This document shows positions 6,880 through 21,482 of a DNA stretch of 34,168 nucleotides, piece by piece (the stretch's first letter is position 1; every line of letters starts with the position of its first letter). Source of the DNA: an uncultured SAR324 cluster bacterium. Its GTDB lineage: Bacteria > SAR324 > NAC60-12. Position numbers and translations under genes: made by a program. The notes under the pieces were generated by a model. The model was not told the DNA's origin and made no database searches. It saw only the letters and a list, made by a program, of their open reading frames with translations. The DNA lies in NCBI GenBank assembly GCA_902590435.1, contig CACIWU010000012.1:1-34168 (forward strand), read 5' to 3'.

Positions 6880-8271
6880 TTAACCCTTCCAAAGTCCTTC
6901 CCGAATCAAATCTTCAGTGGTCTTGAGAATACCCTTTTCCAGAATGTTAAACATATCATCGATTTGGTTCTTATTTATAACTAGGGGAGGAGAAAACACG
7001 CACATATTCCATAATGGTCTCACAATTAATCCCATTGACTGACAGTTTTTGTCTATAAGGGAACTCATTTCAATGTCCATTTCTAGGGCATCTTCACTTT
7101 CAGGATCAACAATTTGACATTCAACACATCCTACTAAGCCTACTCCACGAGTGTCCCCAACGAGAGGAAGTCTCCTCAAATCTTTAATGCGCTGCTGGAA
7201 ATATGGTGATATTTCTCTGACATGCTCCATCAGTCCTTCATTTTCGATGATTTCAAAATTTTTTAAAGCTGCAGCAGAACTTACTGGATGTCCAGAATAT
7301 GTAAATCCATTAGAAAAAGTGGCGTCTTGGGAACCATCTCCTGAAATTTTTTGAAAAATTCGATCAGAAATTATACATGCTCCCATCGGTACATAACCTG
7401 AGGTAAGACCTTTCGCACAAGTAATTATGTCTGGTTCAATTCCAAAAACATCCTTGGATGCGAACCAATGCCCCAAACGTCCAAATGCTGTTACAACTTC
7501 ATCTGAAATATATAAAACATCATACTTTCTACATACTTCCAAACATCTCTGATGATAACCTTTAGGAGGTACAATAACTCCTCCGGAAGCCAAAATTGGT
7601 TCTGCAATGAATCCTCCTACATTTTCTTCTCCAAGAGAAAGAATAGCTTTTTCCAAGTCATTAACTTTTTCTTCAAGAAAATCATCAATGCTGACGTTTT
7701 TTTGTCTTCTGCTTGGATTTACATCGGGAAGAAAGTGTACTAATTCTTTTGCTGTATCCATCCAATCCTTATCACGATCTTTGCCACACATAGTCGCACT
7801 AAGATATGTGCTTCCGTGATAAGATTTTTCTCTGGAAATAATTTTTTTCTTTTTATTTCTTCCTAAAACATTGTTGTAAAAGTGTACAAAACGAATAGCG
7901 CTATCTACGGCCGTTGATCCACAAGTTGTGAAGAAAACGTTGTTTAAATCTCCAGGAGTAAGATCAGCAATTTTATTTGCTAAGATGGCACTTGGTGAAG
8001 AACTCATATTCCATGGGGAATAATAGGGTACTTTGAGAATTTGATCTGAAATAGCATTAGCCATTTCTGGACGACCGTATCCTATCTGCACGCACCACAT
8101 TCCTCCAGGCCCATCTATCAATTTTTGGCCATTTTCATCAAAGAGATATATCCCTTGTGCCTTTTCAGCAAACATACGTTTGTTTTGTCCAACCTCCTTC
8201 ATATATTCCCATGGATGGACGAAATTGTTATTATCAAAACTTTGGATTTCTTCAATGTCTTCAATTTTCAT
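6880..8271 (-). CDS. PLP-dependent class III (omega) aminotransferase
   Basis: A 463-residue fold-type I enzyme of the class III group (taurine/beta-alanine/putrescine-pyruvate transaminases). Visible family marks are the N-terminal DGPGGMWCVQIGYG (53-66), YHGSTY (151-156), AEP (223-225), the cofactor-binding Asp257 in SDEV, and the Schiff-base Lys287 in CAKGLTSGY. It should move an amino group from a primary amine or omega-amino acid to a keto acid such as pyruvate. AGGAG lies eight bases before the ATG. It starts 20 bases after the MttB-family stop and ends four bases before the flavoprotein start, so all three form one operon. The context suggests it handles an amine product of demethylation or an imported polyamine; the exact substrate is unknown. 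Confidence 0.87.
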   Translation of the reverse strand: MKIEDIEEIQSFDNNNFVHPWEYMKEVGQNKRMFAEKAQGIYLFDENGQKLIDGPGGMWCVQIGYGRPEMANAISDQILKVPYYSPWNMSSSPSAILANKIADLTPGDLNNVFFTTCGSTAVDSAIRFVHFYNNVLGRNKKKKIISREKSYHGSTYLSATMCGKDRDKDWMDTAKELVHFLPDVNPSRRQKNVSIDDFLEEKVNDLEKAILSLGEENVGGFIAEPILASGGVIVPPKGYHQRCLEVCRKYDVLYISDEVVTAFGRLGHWFASKDVFGIEPDIITCAKGLTSGYVPMGACIISDRIFQKISGDGSQDATFSNGFTYSGHPVSSAAALKNFEIIENEGLMEHVREISPYFQQRIKDLRRLPLVGDTRGVGLVGCVECQIVDPESEDALEMDIEMSSLIDKNCQSMGLIVRPLWNMCVFSPPLVINKNQIDDMFNILEKGILKTTEDLIREGLWKG

Positions 8272-8291: not shown

Positions 8292-9875
8292 TTAGTTTTT
8301 CCATCTGGAATTTTTTCTCATAGCATTAATTGGAAGCAAAATTGGAAATTTTTCACGAATGTTTTTATCTTTTTTAGATGTGATATGGTCAGGATAGTTT
8401 TTTGATAAAATTTTGTGAACAGTTTCGTGTGCTCGGTTCATTATATCTTTTGATCCTTCTTCTTCCCAAACACTTGGAGAAGAGCGGTCTGCTATTTTTG
8501 GGTATAAAAACTCACTTTGCATATGATCAAGTGTTTGTTTCTGTCCAAGATAATGTCCGGCACCTAGAGCAACATCTTTAATTACGTTAACACTGAGAGT
8601 TTCTTCATTGACTTCAATACCACGAATTATTCTTTGTACTGCTCCAAGCATGTCATTGTCTATTACCAATGCTTCGAAAGAACAACCCATCAGGCTCCCC
8701 AGCATTCCAGCTGATTCTAAGATTCTATTACCTCCTGCTAATCCAGCAAGTACAGCACTTATACCTTTTTCATAACCTGCTTGAGCATCTGGAATTTTAG
8801 AATCAGTCATACATGATGGAACAGTCGTTGGCAAGTTGTAAAATTTTCCTATTTGAACAGCTGCAGAAATAATTAGAGCTTCCTCTCCACTTCCTCCTGA
8901 GAAAGAACCAGTCCTTAAATCACTTATAAAGGGCCAGATTGCAAAACTCATTGGACATCCTGGACTTATAAAATTAACTATGGCTAAACAAGCTAATCCT
9001 TCTGCAGTAACTTGGGCAAGAGTTCCTGCCAAAGTTACAGGAGCAGTTGCTCCTGCCTGGGGAGCAATCGCGATATCGTTGATTAAACCAAGTCGGCTAG
9101 TTTCTACCAAAACGTCCAAATTGTCCTTCGCAAATTTTAATGGAGAAACAATTGGACAACCTCCAAAAGTACAAAATGGTTTTTTGGCAAAACGTCCTTC
9201 TCCTCCCAAAACGATATCGAACATTTCCAGAGCTCCTTTAATATTTTTAGCACGATTAAATGTCATTTCAAAAGGTTTTTCTGTGCCAGAAACAAGAGCG
9301 TATGCTACATTAAAATCATGCTCATCCAAATCAGAAATTTCAGTTGGAATTACTGTTTGTCCAAACTGGTGTATGTACTCCAATTTGTCAACTAAACGAC
9401 AAGTATCATATAAATCTAATAAAGTTGAAGGACGATAGGTCTTTGTATCATATTCTAAAATGGTTACAGCTTCACCACTTGTAGCATAATGTACCCTGTA
9501 TCCACCGACGTGCAAGTCTGCATGCGTTGGATTTCGGCTATATACAACATATTCACTTGCAGCATTTACCAAGACATCCTCAATTAAAGATTTTGGAAAA
9601 CATATGCGTCCAAGATCATTCAAAACGCATCCACATTTTGTTGCCAACTCAATAACTTCTGGAGTGGCATCAGCAATTCCTACACTTGACAAAATTTCCA
9701 AAGCTGCGTGATGAATCTTCTCAAGGTCTTTGCTATCAAGAGGTTTGTATGTCCCTCCAGTCATTCCTGCTTGTACGACAGACATCTTTTTTTCTGAAAA
9801 TCTTTGAGATTTTCTAGCAGATCTCCCTCCAGAACGTACTTTCCCTATTTGCCTTACTTTATCTATATCTATCAT
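8292..9875 (-). CDS. MttB-superfamily methyltransferase, non-pyrrolysine type
   Basis: A 527-residue protein of the trimethylamine methyltransferase (MttB) superfamily. After a basic N-terminal stretch (SGGRSARKS) the family core follows: HHAALEILSSVGI (55-67), the Gly-rich GGSGEEAL near 327-334, and DSKIPDAQAGYEK at 358-370. No in-frame amber codon occurs, so it is not a pyrrolysine enzyme. Characterised non-pyrrolysine members (MtgB, MtpB, MtcB) demethylate glycine betaine, proline betaine or carnitine and pass the methyl to a corrinoid protein. No corrinoid protein gene lies in this window. It is the first gene of the operon with the aminotransferase and flavoprotein. No convincing ribosome-binding site precedes ATG 9875; Met31 is an alternative start, but the basic N-terminus is common in the family. 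Confidence 0.85.
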   Translation of the reverse strand: MIDIDKVRQIGKVRSGGRSARKSQRFSEKKMSVVQAGMTGGTYKPLDSKDLEKIHHAALEILSSVGIADATPEVIELATKCGCVLNDLGRICFPKSLIEDVLVNAASEYVVYSRNPTHADLHVGGYRVHYATSGEAVTILEYDTKTYRPSTLLDLYDTCRLVDKLEYIHQFGQTVIPTEISDLDEHDFNVAYALVSGTEKPFEMTFNRAKNIKGALEMFDIVLGGEGRFAKKPFCTFGGCPIVSPLKFAKDNLDVLVETSRLGLINDIAIAPQAGATAPVTLAGTLAQVTAEGLACLAIVNFISPGCPMSFAIWPFISDLRTGSFSGGSGEEALIISAAVQIGKFYNLPTTVPSCMTDSKIPDAQAGYEKGISAVLAGLAGGNRILESAGMLGSLMGCSFEALVIDNDMLGAVQRIIRGIEVNEETLSVNVIKDVALGAGHYLGQKQTLDHMQSEFLYPKIADRSSPSVWEEEGSKDIMNRAHETVHKILSKNYPDHITSKKDKNIREKFPILLPINAMRKNSRWKN

Positions 9876-17466: not shown

Positions 17467-17551
17467 GCGAGAGTGGTGGAATTGGTAGACACGCCAGATT
17501 TAGGATCTGGTGCCGAAAGGTGTGGGGGTTCGAGTCCCCCTTCTCGCACCA
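17467..17551 (+). tRNA. tRNA-Leu (anticodon UAG)
   Basis: An 85-base class II tRNA with encoded CCA. The acceptor arm GCGAGAG pairs with CTCTCGC-like 3' bases, ending CTCGC-ACCA. The anticodon stem CCAGA/TCTGG surrounds a seven-base loop with TAG at 17501-17503. A long variable arm (TGCCGAAAGGTGTG) is as expected for Leu, and the T arm is GGGGGTTCGAGTCCCCC. It reads CUA and related Leu codons. Its 3' end borders the accessory zone, as is common for integration sites. Confidence 0.95.
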
Positions 17552-17851
17552 CATAATCCCCGTGATTGCAAGGCTTGGGATGTGCGACCCCTATTTGTCT
17601 GCATTTTTGTCTGCATTCAGCCATACAATTTCTTGGATATGGTGGCACCAGTCTCCAAAGTTTCTTCTCCAGAAATATGCGAATATCTCTCTGTACTGGC
17701 AGAATCTTTATGGCCGAGATGACTCTACATATGACCCCCAATACTTTTTCTATCCTGGTGTAAATAAGAAGCTCAACAATGTCGAAGATCATGCCAGCGA
17801 AAGTTTTCAATTCCTATTCTTTTTAATAAGTTGTACTAGGGAGTACGAAAA
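17552..17851. other. Gene-free stretch after tRNA-Leu with a short tandem repeat
   Basis: About 300 bases with no convincing gene. The open frames here run through or antisense to the tRNA and show no family. The base composition looks less AT-rich than its surroundings. An 11-base unit, TTTGTCTGCAT, occurs at 17594-17604 and again at 17606-17616 (12-base period). This could be a remnant of an element inserted at the tRNA 3' end, but no integrase motif can be read. Confidence 0.4.
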
Positions 17852-18239
17852 TTGTTGAGGAAAACAAATTCACTTTTTGGAAACTCTTCTGCATTCCCTC
17901 TTCACCTGACAAGTATATCTCTAACTGCGAGCATATTATCAAGATTTGGAAGTTATGGAGGAACGAATCGTGATCTTTGGATAGGTTTGAAAGATAATGT
18001 TACAGAAGGTACGTGGTATTGTTATACTGGAACTACTTACGGGGATGGAGGAGTTACAGACAATATTTCCTCAGGTGCCACATGGCCAGATGATTCTTCA
18101 AAATGGCGTAGCGGTCAACCAGATAATCATGGTAGTGGAGAAGATTGTAACACCAACAGAGGATCTTTATCATCGTGGACATGGAATGATTTTCCTTGCA
18201 TCGCAGATTTGTAAGGTTTTATCGAATTTGATTAATTAG
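17852..18239 (+). pseudogene. C-type-lectin-like domain, damaged reading frame
   Basis: The frame from TTG 17852 to 18214 encodes a clear C-type lectin-like core: RDLWIGLKDNVTEGTWYC, then WRSGQPDN, EDC and WNDFPC. QPD and WND are the calcium and sugar-binding motifs, and QPD usually favours galactose-type sugars. Upstream the frame has HLTSI but no proper domain start, signal peptide or first cysteine. The C-terminus is shifted: the frame ends CIADL, whereas the next frame reads ASQICKVLSNLIN to 18239, supplying the expected final Cys of the fold. So it is best read as a truncated, frameshifted remnant. C-type-lectin-like domains in bacteria are often on secreted adhesins or phage-derived proteins. 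Confidence 0.65.
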
Positions 18240-18861: not shown

Positions 18862-19254
18862 TTAAAATATTTTATAGTTAAAATCTAATATAGGATTAAA
18901 CATAAATCCTATATTATTTTGAGTGTTATACAAATTTTTAGCATACTCAAAATATGACAAATTCAATCTTGGTTTATATATATTTTCTACTTTTTTAAGT
19001 TTACCTAAAGACATTATTACAGGAACTGACAATTCAGGGTAATTTTGAAATTCTATTTTTCGAAGGACTGATTTTTGTTCTAAAATATTTTTCTCATTTT
19101 GATTGTAGGAATTTTTTAAAGTATCCACAGGAATTAAAATCTTTTGTTTAAATGATTTTGAAAATACCATGCTAAGAATTATCCCAAAAAGCATAGTTAA
19201 AATAATTATACTTGTAAAAAATATGTCATAATATTTACTACTGTATTGACTCAT
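18862..19254 (-). CDS. Small membrane-anchored protein, unknown function
   Basis: A 130-residue protein with one strong membrane segment (about residues 10-31) and a polar C-terminal part containing Asn-rich, aromatic sequence (YFEYAKNLYNTQNNIGFMFNP). No family is recognised. It lies 60 bases upstream of the azurin gene on the same strand, so the two may be co-transcribed. A structured element lies upstream of its start (19309-19384). Confidence 0.5.
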   Translation of the reverse strand: MSQYSSKYYDIFFTSIIILTMLFGIILSMVFSKSFKQKILIPVDTLKNSYNQNEKNILEQKSVLRKIEFQNYPELSVPVIMSLGKLKKVENIYKPRLNLSYFEYAKNLYNTQNNIGFMFNPILDFNYKIF

Positions 19255-19308
19255 ATTTTTTAATCTAAAATTTTTTGGTTTAATTTTTCTAAATTTTCAA
19301 AAAAAAAT

Positions 19309-19384
19309 CCCCCATGCCGGGTGAGGAGAAGATAGAATCAGGATTGAAGTTATCCCTGTTTCTAATGTGTAACCCAGCAGGGGG
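19309..19384 (-). ncRNA. Candidate structured RNA or leader with terminal U-tract
   Basis: An outer stem pairs 19309-19313 (CCCCC) with 19380-19384 (GGGGG), then GC 19316-17 with 19377-78, and GGG 19319-21 with CCC 19373-75, with small internal loops. An inner hairpin pairs AGAATCAGG (19334-19342) with 19355-19363, broken only by one T-T mismatch. Read on the minus strand the outer stem is followed at once by a run of eight or more T, as in an intrinsic terminator. The G+C content stands out from the flanking AT-rich sequence. It lies about 55 bases upstream of the small membrane protein gene, so it may be a leader/attenuator or a small RNA. No known RNA family is recognised, and the strand is inferred from the T-run. 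Confidence 0.5.
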
Positions 19385-19506
19385 TAGATAAAATATTATT
19401 TTTAAGGTTAGTATATACTAATTAAATAAATATGTAAATAATAAATTATAATTAATTAAATTTAGTAATAAAGAGGATAATTTTTAATATAAAAAAATAA
19501 TTGATT

Positions 19507-20468
19507 ATGGATAGGCTATCTGAAATAATTTCATTAAAATTTAATTATGAAGTTTCTGAAATTACTGATGAAAAAGTAGGAATTCTTTCAAACTATTTAT
19601 TCAGGAATATCAACCATAGAATCTCAGCTGTTAATCATATATGAATTTCATTCAAAAATTTTAAAAAAAAATCTTCAAAAAAATATAGATACAATCATTA
19701 TAAATTACCTAAATGCATTAGCAGAATATTTAAAAAATCAAGAAGAAAAACATTACAAATATAAACCCAAAATGTCGGAACATTGGAATCAAACTGAATT
19801 AAATAATATGTTTAAATATCCTGCTACCAAAAAAAATCAAATCCTTTATGTCGCTATAAAAAAAATTTTCAAGAAATATTTGAAGCTTTTGATTCAGTAT
19901 GTGTAAATGAGAATCACGCATTTTTTATGAAAGGAGAGTTTTCAAAAAAGTTATATCTAGAAGAAGATATTTTAAAGAAACATTGCAGAAGATAGATTAG
20001 GCTATGAACTTGAGTCTTGTTGCATGGGATATAGATATTGCTGTCAGATAATGAATGTGGGGATATTTCTAAAGATCTTTATTTAATAAAGTATTAATTT
20101 TTAAAAAGAAAGAAACTTTTGGAAAAATAGATATTGAAAACTAAAAAATATCTATATCTACTATGAACAAAATATTCTTATCTCTTTTTAATAGGAATGG
20201 CAAGGCATTGAATAGTCTAGCAGAAACACATGGGGGTATATTCACGTTATTCAAGATGATTGTTCTCTGAAAACTGTGAAGCATCAGCAGAATTTTAGGA
20301 AAAGATTAAAAAAATCTAATACTTCCTTAATTAGGAGAATATACAAATCAATGGAGTAATTTGCAAAATAACTCTAAATATTTAGACTCAGATACAAAAA
20401 TCAAATGTTCAGATAAGTTCAGGGTATTTAAATTTATTGAAGAAAGAACAATTCCATTTTCAGAATAG
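19507..20468 (+). pseudogene. Eroded protein-coding gene(s), several frameshifts and stops
   Basis: No long open frame exists, yet protein-like sequence continues by switching frames on the + strand. MDRLSEIISLKFNYEV runs from 19507. From about 19600 the next frame reads ESQLLIIYEFHSKILKK and on to MSEHWNQTELNNMF. From about 19860 a third switch, in an A-run, gives FQEIFEAFDSVCVNENHAFF. From about 19980 another gives IAEDRLGYELESCCMGYRYCC, ending at 20086. After a 75-base gap, further pieces (EWQGIE, a stop, then WGYIHVIQDDCSLKTV, and later NQWSNLQNNSKYLDSDTKIK) end at 20468. At least four frameshifts are needed. It could be one gene or two. No family is recognised. Confidence 0.55.
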
Positions 20469-20588
20469 TCTTAATTTTAAAAATGAAGTATTTTTTAATA
20501 TTCTAATTATAGAAAAACCTTTCTCATGCTCAACCATCATTAATATATTTTTGGTTCTATCCAAAAAATTATAGACAATAATTAATGA

Positions 20589-21047: not shown

Positions 21048-21482
21048 TTATAAAGTTGCAATATCTTCTAATCTAGAAACATACTCTGGACTAAGAAGAT
21101 GTTCTCCTTCTAGCAGGAAATTAAGATATTCTTTAGTAGGTCGAGATTCAGGTCCAGTATTGATTGCAACATAAACAATGGCTGATAAAAGATGTCCTTT
21201 GAGATCAAGAACTTGAATGTTTTTCCTTTCATATTGTTTGTCCTGAACTCCCTCATAATTATCTAGTGTAACTAGATCTTCTTCTCGTACAAAATATAGA
21301 ATACCTTCTACTAGATCTCCTAAAGAATTTTTAATGTTGGCTTTGCCTCCATCAAAGGATTGTTTGTTAAATGTCAGAACGTAATCGGACAAGGTTGCAG
21401 AAATTCTTGTAGGTGACCAACCTATTCTGTGCCTAATCCTTCGGCCACTCATATTTGATCCATAAGCGAAATAATTTTTCAT
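21048..21482 (-). CDS. Gamma-glutamylcyclotransferase-like protein
   Basis: A 144-residue cytoplasmic protein of the GGCT/AIG2 fold. YGSN at residues 7-10 is the substrate-binding loop, and Glu77 in DNYEGV is the likely catalytic acid; the following YERK is also typical. Such enzymes release 5-oxoproline from gamma-glutamyl amino acids or amines. Length fits the family. It is convergent with the small lipoprotein gene and divergent from the polytopic membrane protein. Which gamma-glutamyl substrate it uses is not evident. Confidence 0.8.
   Translation of the reverse strand: MKNYFAYGSNMSGRRIRHRIGWSPTRISATLSDYVLTFNKQSFDGGKANIKNSLGDLVEGILYFVREEDLVTLDNYEGVQDKQYERKNIQVLDLKGHLLSAIVYVAINTGPESRPTKEYLNFLLEGEHLLSPEYVSRLEDIATL

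Follow-up and report, generated by a model that had tools for sequence, protein, structure and literature searches.

In Neisseria, two similar small RNAs (sRNAs), NmsRA and NmsRB (NgncR_162/163), are arranged in tandem and carry UC-rich single-stranded stretches complementary to the Shine-Dalgarno sequence, according to two reports (PMC5362039, PMC9973317). The tandem NmsR sRNAs are reported there to act via these UC-rich stretches (PMC5362039). NsiR1 of Nostoc is a short sRNA with tandem copies whose individual promoters share a motif, as described in the respective publication (PMC9045159). Among the papers listed for SAR324 together with small RNA or noncoding RNA, none has a title that points to an SAR324 sRNA.

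The SAR324 bacteria are common marine organisms without cultured representatives. The window analyzed here is a stretch of 34,168 nucleotides from one of them, in which an earlier note had marked a hairpin-forming block at 19309-19384 as a possible unnamed small RNA or leader. Judged from its sequence, this element is probably a free-standing sRNA gene of roughly 100 nt (minus strand, about 19403-19299), belonging to a narrow multi-copy family of sibling RNAs in one SAR324 genus. This reading is considered the most likely one because the conservation extends from the promoter to the T-run, the outer stem is kept and the genes downstream differ. The family, previously unnamed, is best read as belonging to a known kind, the bacterial intergenic sRNAs. 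In the following, the copy in the window is called W, and the copies C1, C2 and C3 are those of the SAR324 single cell AG-404-P05 (same genus; contig CACFAY010000021.1).

As reported, NmsRA/NmsRB resemble the SAR324 RNAs in their similar tandem copies and in the UC-rich single-stranded stretch complementary to the Shine-Dalgarno sequence. NmsRA/NmsRB consist of three stem-loops, whereas the SAR324 RNA has one long stem and an inner stem. Furthermore, no Hfq was found in the SAR324 genus. The likeness to NsiR1 (RF02399) concerns the tandem copies and the motif-sharing individual promoters; in the Rfam search W and C3 also resemble it weakly. However, NsiR1 is known from cyanobacteria, and the scores of 22.3 bits (W) and 17.4 bits (C3) are below its gathering score of 39, so that W and C3 do not qualify as members. 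In agreement with the earlier claim that the block matches no RNA family, the Rfam covariance search gave no family at gathering score, and at E-values up to 10 only sub-threshold, mostly unlike matches were obtained for W, C1/C2 and C3. A GC-rich stem followed by a U-run is common to the element and to intrinsic (Rho-independent) terminators. Unlike these, the SAR324 element is directly preceded by a conserved promoter, and its outer stem encloses 49 nt with an inner stem and a loop motif. An interior of 49 nt is unusual for an intrinsic terminator.

On the minus strand, positions 19384-19309 form a GC-rich outer stem of 13 bp with one bulge, which encloses an inner stem of 9 pairs. Directly 3′ of the outer stem one A is followed by nine T (19307-19299). 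Sequence, fold and terminator-like T-run thus are as described in the earlier note. The parts of the predicted gene are as follows, the transcription start being expected near 19403.

19433..19438, minus strand: −35-like hexamer TTTACA, in place in C3 (TTTACA) and C1 (TTTACT)
19410..19415, minus strand: −10-like hexamer TATACT with a 17-nt spacer; together with the −35 hexamer a 10/12 promoter match
19408..19421, no strand: perfect 14-bp palindrome TTAGTATATACTAA over the −10 hexamer, candidate operator; with the −35 hexamer it precedes only W, C1 and C3 among 17 genus genomes
19372..19384, minus strand: 5′ arm of the outer stem, from fold and pair comparison
19355..19364, minus strand: 5′ arm of the inner stem with one mismatch, from the fold
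19343..19354, minus strand: apical loop, which differs between the compared copies
19333..19342, minus strand: 3′ arm of the inner stem, from the fold
19323..19332, minus strand: UC-rich single-stranded stretch UCUUCUCCUC, with UUCUCC at 19330-19325 as candidate seed complementary to GGAGAA
19309..19322, minus strand: 3′ arm of the outer stem with a bulge at 19314, from fold and pair comparison
19299..19307, minus strand: T-run, predicted intrinsic terminator end, from the sequence; a T-rich tail stands behind all four copies and is short in C2

The fold of 19386-19298 (minus strand) has an energy of −32.5 kcal/mol, compared to −18.4 ± 3.2 for dinucleotide shuffles (z −4.5; 0 of 200 as good), and the plus strand of the hairpin folds more poorly (z −2.9). 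For comparison, 2,352 segments of 87 nt (step 29, both strands) were folded across the 34 kb, a scan that was off-centre relative to the hairpin element; only two segments, at 8991 inside an mttB-like gene, reached −32 or below. A simple terminator scan of 15-24 kb returned the hairpin element as its one site, whereas shuffles gave 2.5 sites on average, and the scan alone therefore is no evidence.

The element occurs once in its own genome (1.51 Mb in 106 contigs, 54% complete). A covariance model built from W alone was searched against 192 genomes. Its best match outside the window was C3 (22671-22757; E 2.1e-6), which has the architecture of W. Weaker matches (E up to 1) were found in 16 other genomes; the five inspected besides W and C3 resemble W at most in stem shape and T-run and were discarded. 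Using C3 as blastn query, C1 was identified at 7882-8011 (E 5.6e-19, 76% identity), which is also matched by the W-only model (E 1.6e-4 in a search of 21 loci). C2, a weaker copy, is located 105 bp after C1 (8119-8206). In local alignments each of the pairs W-C1, W-C3 and C1-C3 beat 500 of 500 shuffles, while the similarity of C2 was equalled by 9 (with C1), 31 (with W) and 42 (with C3) of 500. In W, C1 and C3 the conservation starts at the −35 box and ends at the T-run.

A second covariance model was built from W, C3 and C1. C2 scored 31.6 bits with this model, and its reverse strand scored higher (35.1 bits). Believable copies were present in two of the 17 genus genomes and two of the 52 phylum genomes, both carriers being about half complete. 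The other 15 genus genomes, all of them more complete, had no match better than E 0.035. Throughout the phylum six of 52 genomes passed E 0.05, four of which were rejected: two matches of genus g2 (G024, G045) overlap the start of a response-regulator gene in antisense orientation and are without a promoter, the match in G010 (E 0.035) is without the promoter palindrome, and that in G027 is a short plain terminator. When the 1.8 kb around the element were used as DNA query against 40 genomes, nothing relevant was returned, the matches being an AT-rich place elsewhere in the window genome and 27 bases in G022.

All four copies were used for the comparison of the stem pairs. Since the MAFFT alignment placed W out of register, the arms of each copy were entered by hand with single bulges removed, and the inner stems were judged by eye. 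None of the four copies departs from standard pairing at outer-stem pairs 1 to 12; pair 13 is disrupted in C2 and C3. At pairs 1, 2, 8 and 12 both bases differ between copies (C-G or G-C versus A-U), and at pair 9 one of them does. Without C2 the changes on both sides remain at pairs 1, 8 and 12; pair 2 depends on C2. Folded alone, each copy forms an outer stem with an inner structure (z −4.5 for W, −7.2 for C3, −2.8 for C1 and −5.7 for C2). The secondary structure is thus conserved with compensatory changes among the four copies, and the absence of such changes between homologous loci, which the earlier note would have counted against its proposal, did not occur. By sequence and fold, each outer stem with its U-run (short in C2) would represent an intrinsic terminator of its own. 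The 12-base string AACAGGGATAAC, which the same note had pointed out for its occurrence in 23S rRNA, is present in W. It is not kept in C1, C2 and C3, and its likeness to the rRNA is therefore likely due to chance.

The stretch with the strongest conservation of all is found outside the RNA and consists of TTTAC, 13 free bases and TAGTATATRCTAA, with the −10 hexamer inside TTAGTATATACTAA and a −35/−10 spacing of 17 nt. A slightly looser version of this pattern was found three times in the 17 genus genomes, in all cases before W, C1 or C3 (reversed control: 0). With one mismatch allowed, the 52 phylum genomes contained one further match in another family of the class (G048:C3:1437; 1437-1467), a locus that gave no match to the three-copy covariance model. 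The pattern was not found before C2. Sigma-70-like sites as such are no commoner in the AT-rich DNA of the window than expected by chance (45 vs. 51). The conserved −35 and −10 hexamers at fixed spacing directly upstream of W, C1 and C3 suggest that each of these has its own promoter.

As previously noted, the element is positioned 5′ of a small membrane-protein gene and an azurin gene; both ORFs lie downstream on the minus strand. The first (130 aa, start at 19254) begins about 45 nt downstream of the hairpin and U-run, and the second is a plastocyanin/azurin-family ORF at 18801-18346 (Pfam Copper-bind, E 1.4e-13). The element could accordingly be a regulated leader of these two genes (attenuator or riboswitch-like), whose hairpin stops or passes transcription starting at the palindromic promoter. 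The order of promoter, hairpin with U-run and co-directional gene fits such a leader, as does the presence, about 120 nt beyond C2, of an ORF for a small membrane protein. However, the membrane proteins behind W and C2 share no similarity at E 1e-3, C1 is followed by C2, and about 310 nt separate C3 from the ORF after it. The azurin homologue of AG-404-P05 is located on the same contig as the copies, yet adjoins none of them, and the azurin loci of AG-404-P05 and G010 gave no match to the W-only model, i.e., are without the hairpin. The same downstream gene was thus not found at the homologous loci, and a leader function is unlikely. Of the two possibilities in the earlier note, the small RNA is favored by the homologues, compensatory changes, conserved promoter and terminator, whereas the leader is disfavored since the AG-404-P05 copies do not precede homologues of the membrane-protein or azurin genes.

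There is also only a slim chance that the copies are a small non-autonomous mobile element or REP-like palindromic repeat with a promoter-like sequence arisen by chance. In line with this, there are several diverged copies at different places, two of them adjoining, and the window contains a tRNA gene with an integrase remnant 1.5 kb from the element. On the other hand, the window genome has a single copy, no common flanking duplication was seen on inspection by eye, and three copies have the promoter at the same position and in the same orientation. No match to the element was found in phages and plasmids. In viral contigs a loose stem pattern gave at least 120 stretches, of which none of those 120 matched the three-copy model at E 0.1, and the promoter patterns were found 0 times.

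An ordinary intrinsic terminator of an upstream minus-strand gene is very improbable despite the GC-rich stem and U-run, as the next intact gene of this orientation ends at 21048, 1.7 kb away and beyond broken plus-strand frames, the conserved unit takes in the promoter just upstream, and the interior measures 49 nt. The hairpin element is thus most probably not a stray terminator.

For the free-standing sRNA gene, transcription would start at the dedicated promoter with its −10 hexamer inside the 14-bp palindrome, to which a regulator may bind and thereby switch the gene. The RNA is predicted to be a single long stem that includes an internal loop and the inner stem, and the outer stem and U-run would act as intrinsic terminator. 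Target mRNAs might be bound at their Shine-Dalgarno sequences by UUCUCC, on the UC-rich side of the internal loop, and their translation thereby blocked.

UUCUCC is complementary to GGAGAA, a Shine-Dalgarno type. It was found on the 3′ side of the internal loop at copy positions 57 (W), 58 (C1) and 60 (C3), so that a UC-rich single-stranded candidate seed is kept at the same place in three of four copies. C3 carries a second UUCUCC on the 5′ side of the loop (position 18), and C2 is without this hexamer. Among 25 gene starts in the window, the best loop duplex was predicted for a PotD-like substrate-binding protein (−13.9 kcal/mol, nine contiguous pairs), with 1 of 200 shuffles as good, uncorrected for the 25 genes. 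Its ribosome-binding site TGAGGAGAA (4655-4647, minus strand) is a perfect 9-nt complement of UUCUCCUCA in the RNA. Shine-Dalgarno-like tetramers precede only six of the 25 gene starts. The motif GAGGAGAA before ATG was counted 18 times in AG-404-P05 compared to 7 in the reversed control, and 10 times each in the window genome and its control. Because the motif is no commoner than the control in the window genome, no target is claimed.

None of the 17 genus genomes had a match to Hfq (PF17209), while the control, a search of 14 named genomes, was positive in five. An RNA as heavily paired as this one could function in the absence of the protein. By analogy, it is conceivable that the UUCUCC loop, by binding Shine-Dalgarno sequences of the GGAGAA type, keeps its targets from being translated, perhaps without Hfq. 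The wider proposal of lineage-specific SAR324 sibling sRNAs with a palindromic operator, which repress sets of mRNAs via the Shine-Dalgarno sequence in a genus in which no Hfq was found, is rather doubtful. With the covariance model and the promoter signature, the SAR324 RNA can easily be sought in marine metatranscriptomes, and from its copies the divergence of sibling sRNAs could be followed.

Further features of the window were observed. Positions 19500-20580 are AT-rich and contain several broken frames on the plus strand, which look like the remains of one or two genes. At 17467-17900 (minus strand) a tRNA-Leu (anticodon tag) is followed by a broken integrase-like C-terminus, presumably of a tyrosine integrase; a similar remnant is found by the azurin gene of G010 (L006 850-1300). 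The azurin-family gene adjoins another gene, which we take to be rhodopsin-like, in G010 (L006 2143-2838) and AG-404-P05 (L007 2148-2843), not in the window. A small ORF at 17852-18214 (plus strand) has a C-type lectin domain (Pfam Lectin_C, E 5e-5). Rfam PYLIS_3 was detected at 8711-8810 (minus strand, 64 bits) within the mttB-like ORF 8292-9875. This ORF is open with no in-frame TAG and falls short of the cut-off set by NCBIfam for the pyrrolysine family; it apparently encodes a non-pyrrolysine MttB relative.
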